The position numbers and the translations under genes are program-made. A stretch of DNA of 64,000 bases from Rhodovulum sp. ES.010 (GTDB lineage Bacteria > Pseudomonadota > Alphaproteobacteria > Rhodobacterales > Rhodobacteraceae). The stretch covers positions 1,002,001 to 1,066,000 of the forward strand of contig NZ_FSRS01000001.1 in assembly GCF_900142935.1 (NCBI RefSeq), in the 5' to 3' direction. Under the pieces are notes generated by a model that worked only from the letters and a program-made list of their open reading frames with translations, was not told where the DNA came from and searched no databases. Below are positions 39,034 to 52,584 of this stretch, piece by piece; the first letter of the stretch is position 1; each line of letters begins with the position of its first letter.

Positions 39034-39122
39034 GCCGTTCGATGGCTGCGGCCACAGGCGGTTCGGCAGTGCTTTCTCCTCCCGGCCGCTAACCGGAGGC
39101 GGTATGACCTGCCACTGATCTT

Positions 39123-40052
39123 TCATCCAGCCGCGACCGGAGCCCGGTTGGTGTTTACGCCAAATGGCGCGGGTTGAGCAATCGCCCGACGCGCGGAGCT
39201 CTCATCTCGCGCAGCGGGTCGGGCGATTGCGGTGGTCAGGGTCTGCGCGTAGTCAGCCGGGGTCTGATAGCCCAAGGCCGAATGGGGGCGCTCGGTGTTG
39301 TAGTCGGCGACCCAGGCGGCGATCAGGTCGCGGGCATGGGCGAGGTTACGAAACAGCGTCTCGTTCAAGAACTCGTCCCGCATCCGGCCGTTGAAGCTCT
39401 CGACAAAGCCATTCTGCATCGGCTTGCCCGGCGCGATGTAGTGCCATTCGATCCGGTTCTCGGCGCACCACTTCAGGATCGCGTTCGAGGTCAGTTCCGT
39501 CCCGTTGTCCGACACGATCATTCCCGGCTTGCCGCGACGTTCGATCAGCGCCGTCAGCTCCCGCGCGACGCGCCGGCCGGAGATCGACGTGTCCGGGATC
39601 GCGGCGAGGCATTCGCGCGTGACGTCATCGACGATGTTCAGCACCCGGAACCGCCGCCCGCACGCGAACTGGTCATGGACGAAATCCAGTGACCAACGGG
39701 CATTTGCGCGCGCCTCGACCAGGATCGGGGCGCGGGTGCCGATGGCCTTGCGCCGCGCGCGCCGCTTGCGGACGGTCAGCCCTTCCTCGCGGTAAAGCCG
39801 GTAGATACGGTTGATCCCCGAGGGCTCGCCCTCCCGCCGGAGCAGGACGAAGAGCCGCCGGTAGCCGAACCGCCGACGCTCGTTGGCAAGCTCCCGCAAT
39901 CGGCCGCGCAGTTCCGTGTCGGGTGCGCGTTGCGACCGGTAGCGGATCGTCTTCCGATCCGCGCCGGCAATCTGGCACGCCCGTCGTTCCGACAGCCCGA
40001 ACCGGGCCTTCAGATGCGCGACCGCCTCGCGCTTCACGACGGGCGTCACCAC
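39123..40052 (-). CDS. IS3-family transposase OrfB (copy 1)
   Basis: This is a DDE integrase-type transposase of about 310 residues. Acidic residues are in [16 protein letters not shown] and [13 protein letters not shown], with an HTH-like N-terminus ([18 protein letters not shown]). It is expressed as a fusion with OrfA by -1 frameshifting at A AAA AAG. Confidence 0.93.
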
Positions 40053-40312
40053 TTTTTTGAAACCAGCTCGCGCATCGCGGCCAGATCCAGCATCTGCTCC
40101 GCCAGCAGCTTCTTCAACTTGGCGTTCTCGTCCTCGAGCGCCTTCAGCCGTTTGGCCTCTGACACCGTCATGCCGCCGTATTTGGCTTTCCAGTTGTAGA
40201 ACGTCCCCTCCGACATGCCGTGCTTGCGGCACAGATCGGCACACTTCGCCCCGGCCTCATGCTCGGCCAGGATGCCGATAATCTGCTCTTCGCTGTATCT
40301 CGTTCGCTTCAT
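40046..40312 (-). CDS. IS3-family transposase OrfA (copy 1)
   Basis: The 88-residue DNA-binding protein has an HTH ([39 protein letters not shown]) and a leucine-zipper-like tail ([19 protein letters not shown]). The slippery heptamer lies at plus-strand 40052-40058, just before its stop. Confidence 0.95.
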
Positions 40313-40375
40313 TGTCCGTCCCCTCCTTGGGTCGGACTCTAATCGCAGGTGGAGGAAAAATCCCGTGGCAGGTCA

Positions 40376-40421
40376 TTGCCTGTCCAACTCTTAAGTCTTT
40401 GATATAGAGAGAAATGGCGGA
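40376..40421. repeat. Left attachment repeat (attL)
   Basis: It matches 52456-52501 at 42 of 46 bases, including a 22-bp identical core and the terminal GAAATGGCGGA that contains the tRNA CCA end. Beyond it the sequence ACTTGGATCGAAC still resembles the T-arm of a tRNA (complement GTTCGATCC), so this side keeps a diverged tRNA 3' remnant. Confidence 0.85.
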
Positions 40422-40911: not shown

Positions 40912-41028
40912 CCTGTCCGCCAAAACCCCCACCGCCAGGCGAAATTGACAGGTTCTCGGAGGTGTCCGGTTGATCACCCACGAAAATCAAGTACCCACTA
41001 AGTTATCCTTATGCGTAAGAGGTCATTG

Positions 41029-42087
41029 ATGCGCCCAATTCTCAGAGTAGACACGTCAATCGTTGTCAACAATTGGAAAACGCTAAATCGGCTAGTAGGC
41101 TCGACAGTTTCATGCGTTCCCGTCGTAAAGGCAAACGCGTACGGCCTTGGAGTCGAGCAAGTTTCCTTAGCCTTGACTAAGGCTGGCGTGGCTTCTTTCT
41201 TCGTAGCGGATGCGACCGAGGGAAGTGAGCTTCGCAAGATAGTCGGCGGCGCTCCTGAAATCTATATTCTGGGAGGATACATTGAATTCTATTCAAAGAA
41301 TTATGCCCAAGATATTCTCGTCCCCCTGCTGAATTCGAGCGAAAGCGCCATAAAATTTCTCAGAGATTTCCCCCACCTCGACTATGGGGTCCAGATAGAA
41401 ACTGGACTCAATAGATTGGGACTGAGCGCCTCAGAGCTCGATCGTCTCCACACCAAGTTAACACCTCGCCCACCCAAGCTGATAATCAGTCACTTGGCTT
41501 GCGCCGATGACCCCAAAGCCAACATGAACACCAGACAACTATTAAAAACGATTGAAATCGCCTCGACCCTCCCCAGAACTCCCAACACAAAAGTCTCCAT
41601 AGCTGGATCAGACGCTTTACTAATTGACGATCGCTTCCACATGGACATGGTTCGCCCCGGCGTTTCTCTTTACTGCGGTGGTTTTCTCCCAAAACTGCAA
41701 GATCCCATTAGCATTACCGCGAGGGCAATAAAGAGCCAAATAATTCAGAGGGGCGAAACGGTTGGTTATGGAGCCACATGGACTGCGTCGAAACCTACGC
41801 GTATAACAACATTGTCAGCAGGCTACGCAGATGGGATACCCCGAAATTTTAATGGCGACCTCAGCTTCTTTGCCGACGGAGTTAGTTGCCCCACCGTGGG
41901 GAGGATATCAATGGATCTTGTGACCATCGATACCACTCATCTTGATGATGTGCCAACCCATTTTGAGTTGATTGGCGATCATCAAACTTTGAAAGAATTT
42001 GCGAACTCTATTGGAGAAATTCCGAATAGTCTATTGACCAGCTTTGGCGCCTGCATGAGACATCATTATACAACAGAGACAAGTTGA
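41029..42087 (+). CDS. alr: Alanine racemase (PLP-dependent)
   Basis: This 352-residue cytosolic enzyme interconverts L- and D-alanine. The PLP lysine is in PVVKANAYGLG, the catalytic tyrosine in GETVGYGATW, and GRISMDLVTID carries the later active-site residues. LDYGVQIETGLNRLG and HLACADD also match the family. It starts at ATG 41029, since AAGAGG precedes it; ATG 41011 is the alternative. The gene is AT-rich compared with the chromosome. It faces the interrupted two-TM gene tail to tail with a 14-base gap. It lies on an island with a D-Ala-D-Ala-type ligase and Mur ligase, so it probably supplies D-Ala to them. Serine racemase activity cannot be excluded. Confidence 0.93.
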   Translation: MRPILRVDTSIVVNNWKTLNRLVGSTVSCVPVVKANAYGLGVEQVSLALTKAGVASFFVADATEGSELRKIVGGAPEIYILGGYIEFYSKNYAQDILVPLLNSSESAIKFLRDFPHLDYGVQIETGLNRLGLSASELDRLHTKLTPRPPKLIISHLACADDPKANMNTRQLLKTIEIASTLPRTPNTKVSIAGSDALLIDDRFHMDMVRPGVSLYCGGFLPKLQDPISITARAIKSQIIQRGETVGYGATWTASKPTRITTLSAGYADGIPRNFNGDLSFFADGVSCPTVGRISMDLVTIDTTHLDDVPTHFELIGDHQTLKEFANSIGEIPNSLLTSFGACMRHHYTTETS

Positions 42088-42483
42088 CGGGTCGTATGAC
42101 ATCAAGCTTTGAATATTTCGAAACCCTCCCGCCGCAAGGCGTCCTTGACCATCTCGATGAATTCTGAAGGGCTCGAGGCTGCGGGTCCAAATTCTTGTTC
42201 CACCCGCTGCATGATAGCGTCCAGCTCCTCCTTTCCCGTGCCCTCACCCTTCCAATTGGCATAGATCCGAAACATCGCTCCGGAGTGAGTGAAGTTGAGA
42301 ATGTGCCGTTCCATCTTTTCCTCCTCGCTTTCCGCTTGACGGTTTTTCCAAGTGAATGTTACGCCACTTGTTGGAAACAACCATCCGTCTAATGACACTT
42401 TTACCATCCGGTTGGGTCTGTCTTCATTGATCATCTCAGGGTTGCTTGGAGTTATATAGTAAATCTGACCTGCCACTGATCTT

Positions 42484-43413
42484 TCATCCAGCCGCGACCG
42501 GAGCCCGGTTGGTGTTTACGCCAAATGGCGCGGGTTGAGCAATCGCCCGACGCGCGGAGCTCTCATCTCGCGCAGCGGGTCGGGCGATTGCGGTGGTCAG
42601 GGTCTGCGCGTAGTCAGCCGGGGTCTGATAGCCCAAGGCCGAATGGGGGCGCTCGGTGTTGTAGTCGGCGACCCAGGCGGCGATCAGGTCGCGGGCATGG
42701 GCGAGGTTACGAAACAGCGTCTCGTTCAAGAACTCGTCCCGCATCCGGCCGTTGAAGCTCTCGACAAAGCCATTCTGCATCGGCTTGCCCGGCGCGATGT
42801 AGTGCCATTCGATCCGGTTCTCGGCGCACCACTTCAGGATCGCGTTCGAGGTCAGTTCCGTCCCGTTGTCCGACACGATCATTCCCGGCTTGCCGCGACG
42901 TTCGATCAGCGCCGTCAGCTCCCGCGCGACGCGCCGGCCGGAGATCGACGTGTCCGGGATCGCGGCGAGGCATTCGCGCGTGACGTCATCGACGATGTTC
43001 AGCACCCGGAACCGCCGCCCGCACGCGAACTGGTCATGGACGAAATCCAGTGACCAACGGGCATTTGCGCGCGCCTCGACCAGGATCGGGGCGCGGGTGC
43101 CGATGGCCTTGCGCCGCGCGCGCCGCTTGCGGACGGTCAGCCCTTCCTCGCGGTAAAGCCGGTAGATACGGTTGATCCCCGAGGGCTCGCCCTCCCGCCG
43201 GAGCAGGACGAAGAGCCGCCGGTAGCCGAACCGCCGACGCTCGTTGGCAAGCTCCCGCAATCGGCCGCGCAGTTCCGTGTCGGGTGCGCGTTGCGACCGG
43301 TAGCGGATCGTCTTCCGATCCGCGCCGGCAATCTGGCACGCCCGTCGTTCCGACAGCCCGAACCGGGCCTTCAGATGCGCGACCGCCTCGCGCTTCACGA
43401 CGGGCGTCACCAC
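42484..43413 (-). CDS. IS3-family transposase OrfB (copy 2)
   Basis: The translated sequence matches copy 1: DDE residues in [16 protein letters not shown] and FVESFNGR. It is read by -1 frameshift from OrfA. Confidence 0.93.
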
Positions 43414-43673
43414 TTTTTTGAAACCAGCTCGCGCATCGCGGCCAGATCCAGCATCTGCTCCGCCAGCAGCTTCTTCAACTTGGCGTTCTCGTCCTCGAGC
43501 GCCTTCAGCCGTTTGGCCTCTGACACCGTCATGCCGCCGTATTTGGCTTTCCAGTTGTAGAACGTCCCCTCCGACATGCCGTGCTTGCGGCACAGATCGG
43601 CACACTTCGCCCCGGCCTCATGCTCGGCCAGGATGCCGATAATCTGCTCTTCGCTGTATCTCGTTCGCTTCAT
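43407..43673 (-). CDS. IS3-family transposase OrfA (copy 2)
   Basis: This 88-residue HTH protein matches the other copies. The slippery run lies at plus-strand 43413-43419. Confidence 0.95.
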
Positions 43674-44862
43674 TGTCCGTCCCCTCCTTGGGTCGGACTC
43701 TAATCGCAGGTGGAGGAAAAATCCCGTGGCAGGTCAAATCGGCTCCAGCCTCCTAACGTCTGATGAGCCCAGAACGCTGAAACTTGCACCTTGGCTAGGC
43801 TGTGGTAGTGTTATCGTCACGTCTGTTACCTCACGGTGGTGCGGATACCGATGCTTGACTACAAGCTTGTTCTTAGCTACATCTTTGATTCGATCCACGG
43901 TTAGGGCTATGACTGGGTGCTTGCGGCCAGACGTGTCGACCGCTCCTTCCCGCTCAATCTCGATAGAAACGGGCAGTTCGGTGCGCCCAATGCTCTCAAG
44001 AGCTCGGAAGTTCATCACGTCCAATACAAACTGTTTGATCGCCTCATCCCCCTTTGTAAAAAACCTTTCACGCGTGTCTGCATCAAGCTCGACCATGGAC
44101 CGAAAATAGATGTCGTGTCTTTCAAAGGCCGCAGGCAACGTGCCCTTGTCAAATAGCATTAATATCGTGAAGGGGCCCCGATGCACATACTCCGACCTTG
44201 GATCAAAGCTCTCGTAGCCAATATTTTCTTCTACCCAGCGGTATTTTCTGATATCAAAAATATCTGCGAATTCACCCAATGCACGCTGACTGGGAAACTC
44301 CGTCTCATCGAGTAATACGATGTCGTAATTGTAGTTACGGCGAAAACGGTTTCCCGTTTCCATAAGAGGATGCACAACAGAACTGAAGACTGCACTGCCT
44401 GTTTCATCACCCAAAGTCGAACGCAGTGAATTTCGCACGAAAAGTTCTTTGACGATATCACTGAAGCTGTCGAGTAGCCGCTTGTTCCCAAGTATTATCC
44501 GCGTTAACCCCGCCTCAATCTGGCTTGTTGTATTTGAGCGGAGTGCGACATCCAAGATAACTCCGAGAAGTACAAACGTGGCGAGCGCGCCGGCCACGGC
44601 TGTCCTGGCTTCAACGAGCACGCCCTTTATCGTAGTGTTCGTAAAGAATGCGAGCCAATCGGGTTCTGGGACGTTTGGGTCTGAAGAAGAAAGCGGCAGG
44701 AAAAAAGTCAGCGCCAAGTAGAGCACAATGCACGCAAGCCAGGTCCAAGTAACCTTTAGAGCATTCGTAAGCCGCTCGTTGCGGTCCTCTATCTCACTTA
44801 GCTTTTCGTTAATGTCATTCACTTGCCTACCTCGGCCCACTTGGATCGTCGCCGACACTACC

Positions 44863-46014
44863 TTATCTCGGCAGCAATCGGGTACCCTCGGGAACGGAAT
44901 CGTCGAAGTACTTCACTGAAAGCTGAAGAGCCTCGTCTACCAAATGCGAAACTAACTCTGGGAAAAGCAAAGGTTCGTCTGCTGCTTCCCACAAGAAAAA
45001 TCCATACGATCCAGGAATCGGATTAATTTCATTGAACCATAGTTCTCCTGTATTGGTATTATAAAGAAAATCAATTCTTGGAGCACCGCGACAGCCAAGC
45101 GCAACGAACGATTTGCAAGCGAAATCCCGAATTTGATTATGTAGATCTTCAGAGATTTCCGGGTTAATGTCTCTCGTCAAGGAGAGCATACCCTCACTCG
45201 GGAGAAAGTCGCCCTTTCTTCCCCCGCCAGAAGACAAATACTTCTCTTTAAAATCTAGTAACTCTGCGGAAGTCTTGGGACGTTCAATGGCGGAAAGCTT
45301 CGCGCTCCCATTTCTCCAAATAATTGCGACGTTGAACTCGATAAGATTCTGAACCTGGGGCTCTATGAGGACCATGGTGTCTTCTCGCAAGACCTTCTCG
45401 ACAGTAGACGTTAGCTGCTCGCGATCCTTTACTAGGCCAACGCCAATACTTGACCCAAGATGTACTGGCTTCACTATAAGTGGAAGTCCGAGCCTCTCGA
45501 TAATATCCAGGGGGTCGAAGTCGCCGCTCCGGAGTTGCCTTCTCGAAACAACGCTTCCGTCGACAACAGCTACTCCTGCATCTTTCACTATTGACTTAGT
45601 TACATCCTTCCGCATCGCCATCGCTGAGCTGGCAGCATCGAACCCTGTGACCGGAAAACCTAAAAGTTCAAAAAAGGCTTGGATCCGACCATCTTCGCCG
45701 AACGGGCCATGGAAAACCGGCAATACACAATCAACAAGCGCAATCCGCGACCCGTCCAGCCTACAAAGTTCGGGCCCTTCATTCGCCCATCGAAAGGTCA
45801 CCTCCTCAAGGGCAGGCGGGCGTGGGCGATAGTTTCTAAGGTCTCGAAGCTGGCTACCGAAAAAGAACTTGTTCTCAAATCCGACATAGATCGGAATTAC
45901 ATTCAAACTCTCGACATCCGCAGCATCCATCAACTGATGGGCGCTGACAACGCTAACGTCATGCTCCTGGCTTGCCCCACCAAAAAGTACGGCAACATTC
46001 AGCTTTTCTTTCAT
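44863..46014 (-). CDS. ddl: D-alanine-D-alanine ligase-type ATP-grasp enzyme
   Basis: With the ATG at 46014 the protein is 383 residues. Ddl landmarks are FGGASQEHDVS (E17), FHGPFGEDGRIQ (102-112), VKPVHLGSSIGVG (181-193), LDFKEKY with Tyr259 in the omega-loop, RIDFLYN (313-319) and NEINPIPGS (328-336). The omega-loop continues SSGGGRKGDFLPSEGM and the end has GFFLWE, features I associate with Firmicutes-type Ddl proteins rather than proteobacterial DdlA/B. It joins two D-amino acids, normally D-Ala, using ATP. The Tyr suggests dipeptide rather than depsipeptide formation. It is divergent from the hydrolase gene (104-base gap) and leads an operon with the interrupted two-TM gene. The usual housekeeping ddl within the mur cluster is not here. 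Confidence 0.9.
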   Translation of the reverse strand: MKEKLNVAVLFGGASQEHDVSVVSAHQLMDAADVESLNVIPIYVGFENKFFFGSQLRDLRNYRPRPPALEEVTFRWANEGPELCRLDGSRIALVDCVLPVFHGPFGEDGRIQAFFELLGFPVTGFDAASSAMAMRKDVTKSIVKDAGVAVVDGSVVSRRQLRSGDFDPLDIIERLGLPLIVKPVHLGSSIGVGLVKDREQLTSTVEKVLREDTMVLIEPQVQNLIEFNVAIIWRNGSAKLSAIERPKTSAELLDFKEKYLSSGGGRKGDFLPSEGMLSLTRDINPEISEDLHNQIRDFACKSFVALGCRGAPRIDFLYNTNTGELWFNEINPIPGSYGFFLWEAADEPLLFPELVSHLVDEALQLSVKYFDDSVPEGTRLLPR

Positions 46015-46118
46015 CCTGCAGCCTGTCTTCTCGGTCTCCTGCGCTGAGCACCGGTACACTACCGACCCGAGCGATACCATATCTTGCTTCTAGGCTCGTG
46101 GCCTGCCACAAGAGAGCC

Positions 46119-46877
46119 ATGACATCAATATGCTACACCAGAATCGGTGCTCTGGGCGCGCCGCCGGTAGTCTTCTTGCATGGATGGGGGAGAACCGGAA
46201 GGGATTTCATACCTGTAGCCGAGGCGCTTTCGAGGGTTGCTGACTGCTACCTGTTGGACCTGCCCGGCTTCGGCAGAAGCCCACGGCCGGAGGCGGCATG
46301 GTCGACCGTCGACTATGCCCATAACGTCGTGTCATTCTGCAGTTCAGAGCTTGGCATTCGCTCAGCTATCTGGGTTGGACACTCCTTCGGCGCACGGATC
46401 GGTCTAAGAGCCGCTGCCAACACTCCCGAAAACGTTAGCTCTCTAGTTGTTGTTGCGGGGGCCGGCATCAAAAGAAAGGTGTCCTTTTATCAAAAAGTTC
46501 GAAGTGGATTTCGCTCCCGCCAATTCAAATTCCTTAGAAACCGAGCTGGCACTGAGGAGGAACTTTTGGCCCTCGAAGGGCGTTATGGTAGCCCCGATTA
46601 TGTTGCCAGTCGAACCTTGGGGCTTCGGGATATCTTTTTAAAGACAATCTCGGAGGACCAAACACCACACCTCGCAAAGATAAAATGCCCAACAGTTCTA
46701 TTATACGGAGGAAGGGACACTGAGACTCCACCTGAAATTGGCAAGCGTATCTCGGCGGCCGTACCCAAATCCAGGTACGTTGAATGCCCAGAGTACGATC
46801 ACATATCAATTTTAGACCGAGGGAGGCACCAGATTGCACTCACAATCAAACGCAAACTGAAGAATTTGGAGTGCTGA
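46119..46877 (+). CDS. Alpha/beta hydrolase of the island module
   Basis: The 252-residue protein from ATG 46119 has oxyanion strand VVFLHGWGRTGRDF, nucleophile elbow VGHSFGARIG with the catalytic Ser, the acid in YGGRDTETP, and His in YDHISIL, so the full triad is present. There is no signal peptide, which points to a cytosolic enzyme. Only four bases separate it from the Mur ligase gene, so both are transcribed together. The substrate is unknown. It might hydrolyse or transfer an ester or thioester-linked D-Ala product, but this is conjecture. AT-rich composition matches its neighbours. Confidence 0.85.
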   Translation: MTSICYTRIGALGAPPVVFLHGWGRTGRDFIPVAEALSRVADCYLLDLPGFGRSPRPEAAWSTVDYAHNVVSFCSSELGIRSAIWVGHSFGARIGLRAAANTPENVSSLVVVAGAGIKRKVSFYQKVRSGFRSRQFKFLRNRAGTEEELLALEGRYGSPDYVASRTLGLRDIFLKTISEDQTPHLAKIKCPTVLLYGGRDTETPPEIGKRISAAVPKSRYVECPEYDHISILDRGRHQIALTIKRKLKNLEC

Positions 46878-46881
46878 TGCC

Positions 46882-48474
46882 ATGTTGAGTCCATCTCTTT
46901 TAGTCCTAGTCGCGTCTGTCGCGGTCCTCTGCTTCGTCCGCCTCAGGACTTTGCTGACATATTTTCAGCAAGAAGAATATGACTCGTTTCGGTTTATCAA
47001 CTCTGTTGTGAAAATTCGACTCTTCGACGTTAGAGCCACTATCGCGCTCGTTACAGCCTTTTTGATCGCGCAAACAGAACATTCGTATATTTCATTAATT
47101 GCGAACTTGGCTTCAGCAGCGTCAATAGCCTTTATCGCAATTAGCGAGTATAGGTATAAGTTTAAGAAGCCGCTTGTATTGACAGAAAGAGCTAGGAGAA
47201 TCTTTTTCCTGTCTCTGGTCGTTTCAGCGGCCTCTCTATTGGGGGCACTCTGGGGACATCTCGGCTTAATTTTGGCGATCCATAGCTGGCCCGTGACGCT
47301 TGTACTTGCAAACGCGTTGCTGGGGCCACTTCAGCGCTCAATTAACGAGGCATTTATCCGAAGCGCCAAGGAAAAACTCCAAAGAATGGATCCGGTTAGA
47401 ATCGGTATAACGGGATCGTTTGGTAAGACGACCACAAAATATTTTCTCGCAGACATACTTGAATCTATCGATCCGGTCTTCGTCAGTCGAGGCAGCGTAA
47501 ATACAAAGCTTGGATTGACTCGGCATATTCGCGAACGACTTCAGTGGTCACATCGCTTCTTTATCGCTGAGATGGGCGCCTATGGAGTTGGGTCCATCAA
47601 ATCTCTTTGCCGTTTTGTTGAGCCTTCCTTTGGTATCGTAACTGCGATTGGGGATGCTCATATTGAACGATTTGGGAGCGTTGAGAACATTGCGAAAGCG
47701 AAAGCGGAGCTTCCGGATTATATATGCGCTCGTGGCGGTGTCGTCGTGGCAAGCGCGGAAGTCTTGAAGTATGAGCCATTTCGAGCCCTTAAGGCGCGAT
47801 ATCCGGAAAAATTTCTAACGGTAGGTGAGGATGAGGTATCAGACGTTAAGATCGAAGAGGCTCATCTGAGTGGCCTTGTTTGGCAAATTCGACTGAGGTC
47901 GGATGTCGGTGGAGCACCATTCAATATTGAGTTTGAAAACCCCGTTCTCGGCAAACACAATATTTTTAACTCGGCGCTTGCGGTGACTCTTTCTGCAGTC
48001 ATTAACACTGAATCTCTAGACAGAGTTCCTTTCGTCACAAGGGATTTTGAGCAGATACCACATCGTCTTCAGAGACGCGAAACGGAGGGTCAATCCCTTA
48101 TTTTGGATGACTCCTTTAACTCCAACGAGTCTGGCTTCCGAAATGCGGTCTCCATACTTGTCGAACTCGCAAGAAGCCGAGGCGGGAAGGCTATACTGGT
48201 TACCCCTGGAATCGCAGAACTTGGGGTGGAGCACGCTCGCGTGCACAGCAGACTTGGAGAGTACTGTGCCAAGAATTGCGACCTTGTACTCGTTATAAAC
48301 CCTGAGAGAATTCCTTCATTTGTTGAGGAGCTGAACTCGTCGAATGCTGCCTGGGAAGGTTTTGAAACACTTTCTAGGGCTAGAGATAAATTGGCCAGAA
48401 TCTCCGCTCCTGAAGATGTTATACTTTACGAGAACGACCTCCCCGATCTGCTCGAGGTGAAGAGACTTCTTTGA
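46882..48474 (+). CDS. Membrane-anchored Mur ligase family protein (MurF-like)
   Basis: The 530-residue protein has about 160 N-terminal residues with roughly four transmembrane helices (LLVLVASVAVLCFVR; ATIALVTAFLIA; IFFLSLVVSAASLLGALWG; WPVTLVLANALL). A Mur ligase body follows: P-loop IGITGSFGKTTTK (174-186), EMGAYGVGSI, TAIGDAHIERFGSVENIAKAKAEL with the carbamylated-Lys-like K274 region, then LDDSFNSNESGF. These fit MurF, which adds D-Ala-D-Ala to a carboxyl group. The membrane part is not found in housekeeping MurF. It could attach the dipeptide made by the neighbouring ligase to a lipid-linked or membrane acceptor. It overlaps nothing and ends four bases before a foreign fragment. Confidence 0.88.
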   Translation: MLSPSLLVLVASVAVLCFVRLRTLLTYFQQEEYDSFRFINSVVKIRLFDVRATIALVTAFLIAQTEHSYISLIANLASAASIAFIAISEYRYKFKKPLVLTERARRIFFLSLVVSAASLLGALWGHLGLILAIHSWPVTLVLANALLGPLQRSINEAFIRSAKEKLQRMDPVRIGITGSFGKTTTKYFLADILESIDPVFVSRGSVNTKLGLTRHIRERLQWSHRFFIAEMGAYGVGSIKSLCRFVEPSFGIVTAIGDAHIERFGSVENIAKAKAELPDYICARGGVVVASAEVLKYEPFRALKARYPEKFLTVGEDEVSDVKIEEAHLSGLVWQIRLRSDVGGAPFNIEFENPVLGKHNIFNSALAVTLSAVINTESLDRVPFVTRDFEQIPHRLQRRETEGQSLILDDSFNSNESGFRNAVSILVELARSRGGKAILVTPGIAELGVEHARVHSRLGEYCAKNCDLVLVINPERIPSFVEELNSSNAAWEGFETLSRARDKLARISAPEDVILYENDLPDLLEVKRLL

Positions 48475-48613: not shown

Positions 48614-48676
48614 TGACCTGCCACGGGATTTTTCCTCCACCTGCGATTAGAGTCCGACCCAAGGAGGGGACGGACA

Positions 48677-48943
48677 ATGAAGCGAACGAGATACAGCGAA
48701 GAGCAGATTATCGGCATCCTGGCCGAGCATGAGGCCGGGGCGAAGTGTGCCGATCTGTGCCGCAAGCACGGCATGTCGGAGGGGACGTTCTACAACTGGA
48801 AAGCCAAATACGGCGGCATGACGGTGTCAGAGGCCAAACGGCTGAAGGCGCTCGAGGACGAGAACGCCAAGTTGAAGAAGCTGCTGGCGGAGCAGATGCT
48901 GGATCTGGCCGCGATGCGCGAGCTGGTTTCAAAAAAGTGGTGA
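48677..48943 (+). CDS. IS3-family transposase OrfA (copy 3)
   Basis: This 88-residue HTH/zipper protein matches the other copies. The slippery A AAA AAG is at 48931-48937. Confidence 0.95.
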
Positions 48944-49866
48944 CGCCCGTCGTGAAGCGCGAGGCGGTCGCGCATCTGAAGGCCCGGTTCGGGCTGTCGG
49001 AACGACGGGCGTGCCAGATTGCCGGCGCGGATCGGAAGACGATCCGCTACCGGTCGCAACGCGCACCCGACACGGAACTGCGCGGCCGATTGCGGGAGCT
49101 TGCCAACGAGCGTCGGCGGTTCGGCTACCGGCGGCTCTTCGTCCTGCTCCGGCGGGAGGGCGAGCCCTCGGGGATCAACCGTATCTACCGGCTTTACCGC
49201 GAGGAAGGGCTGACCGTCCGCAAGCGGCGCGCGCGGCGCAAGGCCATCGGCACCCGCGCCCCGATCCTGGTCGAGGCGCGCGCAAATGCCCGTTGGTCAC
49301 TGGATTTCGTCCATGACCAGTTCGCGTGCGGGCGGCGGTTCCGGGTGCTGAACATCGTCGATGACGTCACGCGCGAATGCCTCGCCGCGATCCCGGACAC
49401 GTCGATCTCCGGCCGGCGCGTCGCGCGGGAGCTGACGGCGCTGATCGAACGTCGCGGCAAGCCGGGAATGATCGTGTCGGACAACGGGACGGAACTGACC
49501 TCGAACGCGATCCTGAAGTGGTGCGCCGAGAACCGGATCGAATGGCACTACATCGCGCCGGGCAAGCCGATGCAGAATGGCTTTGTCGAGAGCTTCAACG
49601 GCCGGATGCGGGACGAGTTCTTGAACGAGACGCTGTTTCGTAACCTCGCCCATGCCCGCGACCTGATCGCCGCCTGGGTCGCCGACTACAACACCGAGCG
49701 CCCCCATTCGGCCTTGGGCTATCAGACCCCGGCTGACTACGCGCAGACCCTGACCACCGCAATCGCCCGACCCGCTGCGCGAGATGAGAGCTCCGCGCGT
49801 CGGGCGATTGCTCAACCCGCGCCATTTGGCGTAAACACCAACCGGGCTCCGGTCGCGGCTGGATGA
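48937..49866 (+). CDS. IS3-family transposase OrfB (copy 3)
   Basis: This DDE transposase is about 310 residues, with the same sequence as in copies 1 and 2, produced by -1 frameshift from OrfA. Confidence 0.93.
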
Positions 49867-49884
49867 AAGATCAGTGGCAGGTCA

Positions 49885-49961: not shown

Positions 49962-50098
49962 GGACGCCCTATGCTGCTGCACTGGGCGCGTTGACTATAT
50001 CTCAAAACTAGGTATCTAAAATCTGGATATTGAGCGTCTTTGCTGTCCAGTTCAGCGCTGTGCCGGGGCGCATGTCAGTCTCACCATCGGAGCGCCCC

Positions 50099-50827
50099 AT
50101 GACCCTCAACAACAAGTCACCAGACCACCACATCGCCTACGGTGCTGCGACCGAAGGTGTGGCGGCTGCAAGTGCCAGCCTTGGTGTGATCGGGCGATAT
50201 TGGTGGAACCTGCAAATGCAACTCTTGGTCGCCACCGGCACCATGCGGTTATTCCGGGCTTATTGGTGGCTGTTTCTCGTTGCCGGTTTCTTGCTCTTGG
50301 CTTTTGTCATGCCCCTGGGCGTTGCTTTCGTGGTGAGCGCCTTTTGCGCGGGCGCAATGAACCCGAAAGCGGAAGACAACTTCATTGTGCCGCTCAGGCG
50401 CGAAGATAACGAGCCTATGGGTGAGCCTGCCGCAAATGAACCCGATGTAGCGTCTCAGTCTGACGATTTGGGGCATGTTCAAGATGCGGCGGCTATTCAC
50501 CACCTTGGGTATCTCAATGCAATAAAGCGCGAAGTGGACGACAGAGAGTTTGCAGCCTCCGCGCTTGGTGCATTCGACGGAACGCTGCAAGCATGTCGCC
50601 TTCGGCTATCTGACCTTGATATGCACACCAACGGCGCTGCGTTCATCCTCGCCCAACTGACCAATCTTGAGCGCATTGACATTGACAGTGTTGATCCTGA
50701 CTGGATTGCAGAAGTTACTGACGAAGCGATGACTTCCAGTGCACTTGAAGCGATCCGCGACGAAGCTGGCCGTTTTGCCTACAAGGCGGAAGGGGCCATG
50801 CGGTTTGGCCCCACTCCTTCATCCTGA
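50099..50827 (+). CDS. Hypothetical island membrane protein
   Basis: The product is 242 residues from ATG 50099, with GGAGCG just upstream; an earlier in-frame ATG at 50072 is possible. Residues 55-85 form one or two hydrophobic helices (AYWWLFLVAGFLLLAFVMPLGVAFVVSAFCAGAM). The remainder is acidic and soluble, with DLGHVQDAAAIHHLGYLNAIKREVDDREFAASALG and a helical C-terminus. I do not recognise it. It sits between IS copy 3 and the convergent integrase, so it is probably island cargo. The 137 bases before it hold no feature I can name. Confidence 0.65.
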   Translation: MTLNNKSPDHHIAYGAATEGVAAASASLGVIGRYWWNLQMQLLVATGTMRLFRAYWWLFLVAGFLLLAFVMPLGVAFVVSAFCAGAMNPKAEDNFIVPLRREDNEPMGEPAANEPDVASQSDDLGHVQDAAAIHHLGYLNAIKREVDDREFAASALGAFDGTLQACRLRLSDLDMHTNGAAFILAQLTNLERIDIDSVDPDWIAEVTDEAMTSSALEAIRDEAGRFAYKAEGAMRFGPTPSS

Positions 50828-50855: not shown

Positions 50856-52427
50856 CTACCGTGCGGTGATTCTCTCAATCGCGTCCTTCTTCTGGGCCAG
50901 CGTGTAGCCCTCGCCAAAGTACCCATCGGTCACGGTGTCACGTTCATGCCCAACGATCTCTTGCACAAGTGACAACTCGACACTGGCTTGCCGCATCCGG
51001 GTAATGGCTGTGTGGCGCAGGCTGTGGAAGACAAGGCCGTCTTCCTTCATTTTCAGTCCGGGCAGAAAGGTGTTATTGAACCAGCGGCCCAGATTGCGGC
51101 CATAGCCTTCCTTGTCGTTGTGCGAAAACGACATGAACAGGCGCGGTTGCTTTGCGGAGCCTTCGACCCATTCGAGGAAGCCAAGCCGGATCAACTCCGA
51201 ATGGACGGGCACCCGGCGTTTGGCGGCAGGCGATTTCAGGCTTTTCTTCTCACCGTCTGCGTTGATGTCGATGTACCAGATGCCGCCTTCATTCCGAATG
51301 TCAGACGGTACCAGTTGCGCGACTTCCCGCAACCGTGCCCCGGTGAACATCGCCAGAAGTGTTCCCCACTTGTGATCGTCTTTCTTGACCAGTCCGAAGC
51401 GGTTTTCCGTCAACTCGACATAGAGGCGTGAAAGCTGTTCCTTGCGGTACGCCTTGCGCTTCTCTGCGGCTTGCTTGGCCTTCGCAACCTTCATGCCGTC
51501 GAACAGCTTGTGGGGCGCGCGCCCGTGGCGTTCTGCCCAGTCCCAGAAGCGGCGGAACATGTCGATGTAACTGTTGACGGTCTTCACGCCCATCTTGGGC
51601 AAGCCGGGAACGGCGATGGCGTCCTGCAAACTCAGGTCGCGGGTTTCGGGCTTGGTCTTGCGGTTGGCGGGCAGGGCTTGCACCAGCTTCTTCATGTCAG
51701 CGGCGTCTTGGCGGCTGATCTGGTCCATCGGGCGGTCAGGTCCGAAATGCCCCACCAGCAGGGCAAGATAGGCATCCGCCTTGTTCCGCATCTCCTGCGA
51801 CCATTGCGGCCCATGCTCGGCTTTGAAATCCGCGATGGCCGCGCTCAGAGACGCGGAGCGGGCCTGTGACGGCTTCGGCAGGGTCTGGGCATGTTCGGTG
51901 AAGGAATAGCCCTCAAGGCTCTCGGCGCGGCTCAGAAGCTCTCTGATCTGGTCACGTCGGGCCTTGCGCATCTCGTGGCGCAAGGACGGGGCATTCTCGG
52001 CCCATTGCGCGTCTGTGAGGCCCGCTGAGGCTCGGAAGGCGTCCGGGTCAAGGAACATGTCCGACAGATCGTCATGGCCCTCTGCGGCGTCCTCATGGGC
52101 AGCGAGTTCTTGACGCAGAGCGTCAAGGGACCGATCCGGCAGGCCGGTATCGTTCAGCTTCTCAACATACGCATCCAGCGAAGCCGCGAAGTAGCTTCGC
52201 ACCATCTCGCGCATCTCGTCTTGCCTGAGCCTCGCCAATGCCTTGTTATCCCGAACCAATCTCCCGCATGATGCAAGATGGCGGGCCAGATCGCCAGCCC
52301 GATCTGGGCACTTGGTGCGAAGGGAAATCCTGACGGTGCGGCGGCTTTGGCGGTCTGGGGAAGGCAAGGGCCAGCGGAAATAGTAGACCCCGTGGCGCGA
52401 TGGCGAAAGGAAGGCGGACAGTTTCAT
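50856..52427 (-). CDS. int: Tyrosine recombinase integrase of the island
   Basis: This 523-residue phage-type integrase has a variable N-terminal half (binding domains, starts MKLSAFLSPSRHGVYYFRWPLP) and a catalytic half. Catalytic residues are R in TGARLREVAQL, K in the KSPAAKRRVPVH region, H-x-x-R in HSLRHTAITRM, H in VGHERD and the nucleophile Tyr in TVTDGYFGEGYTL. It lies 28 bases from attR and 67 bases from the tRNA-Ser 3' end, the standard arrangement for tRNA-targeting islands. It catalyses integration and, with an excisionase, excision. No excisionase gene is evident. Confidence 0.95.
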   Translation of the reverse strand: MKLSAFLSPSRHGVYYFRWPLPSPDRQSRRTVRISLRTKCPDRAGDLARHLASCGRLVRDNKALARLRQDEMREMVRSYFAASLDAYVEKLNDTGLPDRSLDALRQELAAHEDAAEGHDDLSDMFLDPDAFRASAGLTDAQWAENAPSLRHEMRKARRDQIRELLSRAESLEGYSFTEHAQTLPKPSQARSASLSAAIADFKAEHGPQWSQEMRNKADAYLALLVGHFGPDRPMDQISRQDAADMKKLVQALPANRKTKPETRDLSLQDAIAVPGLPKMGVKTVNSYIDMFRRFWDWAERHGRAPHKLFDGMKVAKAKQAAEKRKAYRKEQLSRLYVELTENRFGLVKKDDHKWGTLLAMFTGARLREVAQLVPSDIRNEGGIWYIDINADGEKKSLKSPAAKRRVPVHSELIRLGFLEWVEGSAKQPRLFMSFSHNDKEGYGRNLGRWFNNTFLPGLKMKEDGLVFHSLRHTAITRMRQASVELSLVQEIVGHERDTVTDGYFGEGYTLAQKKDAIERITAR

Positions 52428-52455: not shown

Positions 52456-52501
52456 TTGCCTGTCCAACTCTTAAGTCATTGATCTATATAGAAATGGCGG
52501 A
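52456..52501. repeat. Right attachment repeat (attR), overlapping the tRNA-Ser 3' end
   Basis: It repeats 40376-40421 with four mismatches. Its right end covers the CCA and the first acceptor-stem bases of tRNA-Ser, so integration restores an intact tRNA. Confidence 0.85.
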
Positions 52502-52584
52502 GAGACAGGGATTCGAACCCTGGAGACGGTTTCCCGCCTACACGCGTTCCAAGCGTGCGCCTTCGACCACTCGGCCACCTCTCC
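52495..52584 (-). tRNA. tRNA-Ser (anticodon GGA)
   Basis: The 90-nt class II tRNA is read on the minus strand. The acceptor GGAGAGG pairs with CTCTCC, followed by discriminator G and encoded CCA. The D-arm is GGCCGAGTGGTCGAAGGC. The anticodon stem-loop is CACGCTTGGAACGCGTG with GGA. A long variable arm (GCGGGAAACCGTC region) and T-arm AGGGTTCGAATCCCT complete it. It is the integration target of the adjacent island. Confidence 0.97.

Follow-up and report, generated by a model that had tools for sequence, protein, structure and literature searches.

A conserved module of a Ddl-type ligase, an alpha/beta hydrolase and a membrane Mur ligase on a tRNA-Ser island of Rhodovulum sp. ES.010, a possible alternative ending of the peptidoglycan-precursor pathway

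In the usual picture of cell-wall synthesis, MurF and Ddl are soluble enzymes of nearly all bacteria, and both are regarded as drug targets. CapB/PgsB, the poly-gamma-glutamate ligase, is a Mur-type ligase tied to the membrane, and in the amidation of lipid II by MurT/GatD a Mur-type ligase works with a partner enzyme on a lipid-linked precursor. In passages of one account, FPGS rather than MurCDEF is given as the closer relative of CapB, and the Mur-domain families named there are MurCDEF, CapB, CphA, and FPGS, with no membrane MurF among them (PMC11915815). Here we analyze a stretch of 64,000 nucleotides from Rhodovulum sp. ES.010 (contig NZ_FSRS01000001.1, positions 1,002,001 to 1,066,000; the whole stretch is called the window), in which an island at a tRNA-Ser gene carries genes for a Ddl-type ATP-grasp ligase, an alpha/beta hydrolase (ABH), and a Mur ligase with an N-terminal membrane domain (TM-Mur). 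From comparison of sequences we suggest, with a probability of about 0.6, that these three genes encode an alternative ending of the peptidoglycan-precursor pathway, of which the host has acquired a copy. A literature search, whose coverage was without bioRxiv and most subscription papers, found no description of such a module.

TM-Mur resembles MurF in its soluble part and departs from it at the N-terminus. PF08245 and PF02875 are both found, whereas PF01225, the N-terminal UDP-substrate domain that is present in both control MurFs, is absent. The MurF profile TIGR01143 covers positions 58-402 of its 418 with 183.6 bits, below the cut-off of 288.6. The GSxGKT ATP-binding loop is invariant in 42 TM-Mur sequences. 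An earlier note on this DNA had proposed a membrane-anchored MurF-like ligase with about four helices; the Mur domains and the membrane domain hold, while the helices appear to number about five, both by hydropathy and in an AlphaFold2 model built with the 42 sequences (pLDDT 93.3, pTM 0.88), where helices extend to residue 169 and are followed by the Mur fold. With this model, the nearest solved structures found by Foldseek are MurF (4qf5, TM-score 0.67 by target length), and a viral fold search gave no convincing match. Residues Q29, Y33, K95, T101, and R103 of the membrane domain are invariant in the 42 sequences, and K96 and R106 are nearly so. They sit in two loops that probably face the cytoplasm, 25-52 and 91-107; the latter contains seven K/R. 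A tree of the ligase had also been proposed in the note. In the maximum-likelihood tree of 62 rows, 41 TM-Mur sequences form one clade (99/98) beside 12 MurF (100/98), separate from MurE and MurD. Rows without the trimming motif (one TM-Mur, both MurC) were excluded, and five of the MurF rows are long branches. On this tree TM-Mur forms its own clade, with MurF as the sister group. The window protein groups with L044 and L045 (100/100) and then with L026.

In the class Alphaproteobacteria, TM-Mur is present in 20 of 289 genomes (E <= 1e-40). In 18 of the 19 carriers other than the host, the match, of 35-41% identity, starts no later than residue 15 and thus takes in the membrane domain. When GTDB species contigs were scanned with an alignment of 18 rows, at least 568 relatives were obtained, of which the best 80 were taken. 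The titles of these 80 include Alphaproteobacteria, Bacteroidales, Clostridia, Bacilli, Spirochaetes, Poribacteria, Acidobacteria, and Melainabacteria, although many of the loci are from metagenome-assembled genomes (MAGs), whose titles may be wrong. TM-Mur is also found in 30 of 196 genomes of a Clostridia class (G312; locus L093, titled Lachnospiraceae) at E <= 1e-90. A plasmid or phage origin of the gene was rejected, since no place in 72,556 plasmid and 50,697 phage records matches TM-Mur at >= 80% coverage. One unannotated faecal phage record of 22.8 kb (MT835658.1:4887-6035) has 34% identity to residues 135-522, and may be a mis-binned bacterial contig.

The neighbors of TM-Mur were examined by six-frame search in 100 loci (19 class loci, the best 80, and L160), which represent 97 groups at 90% identity. 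Both Ddl and ABH are present within 3.5 kb of TM-Mur in 78 loci, ABH alone in 11, Ddl alone in 5, and neither in 6. In 12 of the 22 incomplete loci, TM-Mur lies <1.5 kb from the end of the available sequence. ABH is upstream of TM-Mur on the same strand in every complete locus (78/78). The position of Ddl varies: it follows TM-Mur in 58, and of the 20 loci that have it on the other side, 12 show the divergent arrangement of the window. The commonest cluster among 810 other open reading frames (ORFs) within 5 kb of the module genes occurs in 10 loci only, so no fourth partner stands out. As judged from these neighborhoods, the conserved module is Ddl, ABH, and TM-Mur only. The earlier note had joined five genes into one set, with an alanine racemase (Alr) and a protein of two transmembrane segments (two-TM protein) as further members, and had proposed as a check a search for co-occurrence of the Mur ligase with alr, ddl, and the hydrolase in other genomes. 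Co-occurrence was found for Ddl and ABH, so homologues do cluster elsewhere, but a homologue of Alr was flagged in 0/19 class loci and 0/80 named loci, and the two-TM protein has one weak relative near another module. The five-gene unit was rejected on these grounds and shrinks to three; the island alr is cargo outside the conserved module.

The module Ddl has both Dala_Dala_lig domains (PF01820, N-terminal; PF07478, C-terminal) and is thus the Ddl-type ligase claimed before, though it scores 227.7 bits with TIGR01205, below the cut-off of 245.65. Two of its relatives (G031, L096) exceed the cut-off. The canonical second-substrate loop PG....S[LMV].P, whose serine holds the second D-Ala, is missing, and all 37 aligned module rows read PGS..[FYH][YF]L[WF]. 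The corresponding loops of canonical Ddl are PGMTPTSLAP in the host and PGFSPHSVFP in G237, and the solved canonical Ddl proteins keep the longer loop. Exceptions to the module motif are the Ddl of G219, which scores with the module profile without having the motif, and that of L110 (outside the class), which is off by one residue. Of the 20 carriers in the class, 19 have a module-type Ddl; in G117, G222, and G237 it and TM-Mur lie on different contigs. The exception is G069, whose Ddl hit, like additional hits in G050, is weak and unclassified. Among these 20, a canonical Ddl was seen in two genomes only, those of the host and G237. G115 (L164) and G198 (L165) have canonical MurF together with module Ddl only, as far as seen, which argues that the product of the module Ddl suits MurF. 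These two genomes look as if Ddl had been replaced before MurF. In ABH, the complete triad reported earlier, assigned by position, is invariant in 15 aligned sequences, and the GSxDY segment is kept (one row is SSxDY-like); its matches are to generic hydrolases only.

Canonical MurF is missing from most carriers of the module. MurF exceeds the TIGR01143 cut-off in 243 of the 289 class genomes, namely in 3/20 carriers (G000, which is the host, G115, and G198) versus 240/269 non-carriers (Fisher p 1.2e-12, taking the genomes as independent). When only genomes that are >=90% complete with <=5% contamination are considered, a MurF match (E <= 1e-75) is seen in 3/12 carriers versus 214/223 others. 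Outside this comparison, 37 of the 80 named loci were traced to their genomes: MurF is over the cut-off in 3, full length but below the cut-off in 6, partial in 4, and unmatched in 24. The six below-cut-off frames are of 790-1074 aa, and one of them, L171, also matches Alr, as a MurF-Alr fusion would. The isolates Gracilibacillus massiliensis, Aquibacillus kalidii, and Blastochloris sulfoviridis are among the 24 without a match. A further, weaker match is present in eight of these 24, and the two that were checked (G313, G316) are MurE.

The place where murF would be expected was examined in 19 regions. Eight (L125-L130, L139, L143) have a murE-murD gap of 1.0-1.7 kb with no murF, three have murE without a recognized murD, two are module loci rather than dcw, and four have MurE with a remnant of MurF. 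The last two are a MurE-MurF-like fusion (L137) and a MurF (L138). Two more murF-less gaps (L161, L163) come from the genomes of L044 and L045, the nearest relatives of the window; in L163, murE is cut by the contig end. The longest ORF in ten carrier dcw gaps between murE and murD is MraY, over its cut-off, in 10/10. In six clusters with canonical MurF (L164, L166-L169, L172), of which three come from carriers, murF is the gene immediately after murE. Incompleteness of MAGs is unlikely to be the whole cause of the missing murF, because murE, mraY, and murD adjoin without it in ten clusters, one of them from an isolate (Gracilibacillus massiliensis, L139), and because good genomes show the same contrast. 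In G021, G153, and G251, which belong to one family, and in G050, MurE has an extension of ~270-315 aa like the N-terminal half of MurF (17-80 bits), in which the GKT loop is unrecognizable. These remnants look like decay after replacement, and the retained N-terminal part may still be useful. The remnant is retained in three genomes of one family and is perhaps still used.

In the proposed alternative ending, the Ddl-type ligase would make a D-alanyl dipeptide (D-Ala-D-Ala or a close analogue), and TM-Mur would join it to the third stem-peptide residue, like MurF but at the membrane. Because a membrane domain with invariant residues replaces the UDP-binding domain, a tripeptide precursor linked to lipid (lipid I or II) is the most likely acceptor. 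Such a precursor would arise when MraY accepts UDP-MurNAc-tripeptide. ABH would be a dedicated serine hydrolase, perhaps editing or supplying the dipeptide. MurF and Ddl would have been superseded by the module in many bacteria, and it would have reached this host on the tRNA-Ser island with an alanine racemase, beside the canonical enzymes. The earlier idea of a D-dipeptide put on a membrane acceptor fits the evidence, whereas that of a special metabolite or decoration is less favored: the module mostly occurs where canonical MurF, and usually also canonical Ddl, is not found, which points to the ordinary peptidoglycan pathway.

Several observations weigh against this proposal. Besides the carriers, 29 non-carriers are likewise without an over-cut-off MurF, many carriers are MAGs, and the Fisher test leaves relatedness uncorrected. 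Full-length MurF is present besides the module in 4/20 class carriers (G000, G115, G198, and a divergent one in G219), and G166 has a MurE-MurF-like fusion that keeps the GKT loop; the module is thus not the only route in every carrier. Among the 37 named carriers, 13 have a full or partial MurF match besides the module. Moreover, the remnant fused to MurE keeps the N-terminal, substrate-side part of MurF, so that UDP-tripeptide could still be presented in these lineages.

The persistence of such remnants in four carriers and the presence of MraY, over its cut-off, in the ten clusters checked would also suit a membrane-tethered MurF, which would still use soluble UDP-MurNAc-tripeptide and whose helices would only place it beside MraY for channeling. 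We consider this rather unlikely, as PF01225 is missing from TM-Mur and the invariant polar residues of the membrane domain exceed the needs of an anchor. That the dipeptide is put on another lipid or metabolite, and not on a wall precursor, would explain why canonical MurF and Ddl are kept in some carriers, the host of the window included. However, most carriers have no other MurF, most class carriers have no other Ddl, and MurE and MraY are nevertheless present in the clusters checked, which makes a separate function improbable. It is very improbable that the module works elsewhere while the island genes are idle passengers in this host, as the three insertion sequence (IS) copies, one probably splitting the two-TM gene, and the lack of TM-Mur in 15 congeners might suggest, since alr and all three genes of the module have open reading frames with the conserved residues in place. 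We infer that the island copy is active.

The alternative ending can be extended, tentatively and at less than even odds, to a second route to the stem peptide. MraY and MurG would act on the tripeptide, and a membrane-embedded MurF would add the last two residues on the lipid carrier with the help of a dedicated hydrolase. As the second-substrate loop is remodelled in the module Ddl proteins in a shared way, the second of these residues may be other than D-Ala. The module would spread horizontally, with decay of canonical murF and ddl to follow, and the window would represent an early state with both sets. Because the island catches the module in a host with canonical genes, the order of events is testable. 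If a membrane-embedded version does replace MurF and Ddl in the carriers, the textbook pathway is wrong for parts of the Alphaproteobacteria and of a Clostridia class and for some Bacilli, and annotation mis-names a key step in them. The wall precursors of carriers may end differently, and inhibitors of MurF or Ddl may miss them.

The island spans ~12 kb of a 3.83-Mb, two-contig genome and is framed by a tyrosine integrase gene, tRNA-Ser, and a 22-bp direct repeat. Its GC content is 0.476-0.524 in five IS-free 1-kb intervals (41001-42000, 44001-48000) versus 0.61-0.77 to the left of the island, so that the AT-rich, tRNA-integrated island of the earlier note is borne out. TM-Mur is absent from 15/15 other genomes of the genus and is present in 1/21 other genomes of the host family (G348); three further host-family genomes have no match in the class scan. 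The island is therefore an acquisition. The host retains its own alr (C1:260592, 36% identity to the island Alr), ddl (C1:1271118), and murF (C1:1285055), the last two in the dcw cluster and both over their family cut-offs (Ddl 257.0 bits, MurF 365.8 bits). The island copy is thus an acquired extra, and displaced housekeeping genes, which the earlier note had named as a refuting outcome, are rejected for this host. The second contig of the host (99 kb, G000:C2) has patchy plasmid matches, mainly to transposases and most often in Paracoccus (11/56 records).

Coordinates of other features of the island are given with those of the module in Table 1. The alanine racemase reported earlier is supported by its profile score and by the motifs KANAYG (pyridoxal phosphate-lysine-like) and GYAD. 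Three identical 1271-bp IS copies, which we take to be of the IS3 type, are located inside the island or at its edge. A flanking repeat is seen for the middle copy alone, and the outer two may thus have recombined or shifted the island edges. The two-TM ORF has no family, as reported, but is probably not an intact gene: it ends in the IS, and a 124-aa ORF beyond the IS, which weakly matches its profile, is probably the far part of the split gene. The 288 other class genomes gave no relative of the two-TM protein (E <= 1e-4); the sole relative found (34 bits) is near the module of Aquibacillus kalidii (L112:13675-14832). A 240-aa ORF and this 385-aa two-TM protein lie beside that module (L112:12942-14832). 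A known anti-phage defense system was rejected, as 0/8 island proteins have a PADLOC match (E 0.01).

Table 1. Features of the module and island (window positions), and MurE proteins with a MurF remnant (locus positions).
Feature	Position	Strand	Remarks
TM-Mur	46882..48474	+	~five membrane helices at the N-terminus, residues 4 to ~148; Mur middle and C-terminal domains follow
ABH	46119..46877	+	triad S89, D200, H228
Module Ddl-type ATP-grasp ligase	44863..46014	-	second-substrate loop PGSYGFFLW
Alanine racemase (alr)	41011 or 41029 to 42087	+	TIGR00492 177.3 bits, cut-off 168
Two-TM ORF, 374 aa	43734..44858	-	runs out inside IS copy; no family match
124-aa ORF beyond IS	42102..42476	-	weak match (13.4 bits) to two-TM protein profile
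IS copy, middle, 1271 bp	42466..43736	-	4-bp flanking repeat AATC
IS copies identical to middle one	39105-40375; 48614-49884 (inverted)		
265-aa ORF beside integrase	50030..50827	+	hydrophobic stretch; without family match
Tyrosine integrase	50856..52427	-	
tRNA-Ser (GGA), integration site	52495..52584	-	
Left end repeat	40376..40397		22 bp exact; weaker similarity on to ~40440
Right end repeat	52456..52477		adjoins tRNA 3' end; weaker similarity runs into tRNA 3' end
MurE with C-terminal MurF remnant	L133:400-2733; L134:5362-7641; L135:3971-6283; L136:11157-13565		four genomes, two families

The module can thus be set beside several known systems. As in the van operons, mobile DNA carries a Ddl-type ligase together with another enzyme of its branch. 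However, a van-type operon was rejected, in agreement with the earlier note, as none of the eight island proteins scanned matches VanH or VanX. Unlike CapB/PgsB, TM-Mur is sister to MurF, on a tree that is without CapB. It differs from MurT/GatD in that the TM-Mur profile gives MurT 41.5 bits versus 180.8 for MurF, and its partner is an alpha/beta hydrolase, with no amidotransferase among the eight island proteins. The module Ddl has the whole ATP-grasp architecture of Ddl (TIGR01205) and keeps the KY motif, but its loop reads PGS....L[WF] in place of PG....S[LMV].P, and its omega-loop region is longer and variable. MurF is nearest to TM-Mur by profile, fold, and tree, and shares with it the Mur middle and C-terminal domains and the GKT loop. 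TM-Mur stands apart in its profile score (183.6 versus 288.6 bits), in having about five membrane helices instead of PF01225, and in its obligate-looking neighbors, ABH and Ddl.

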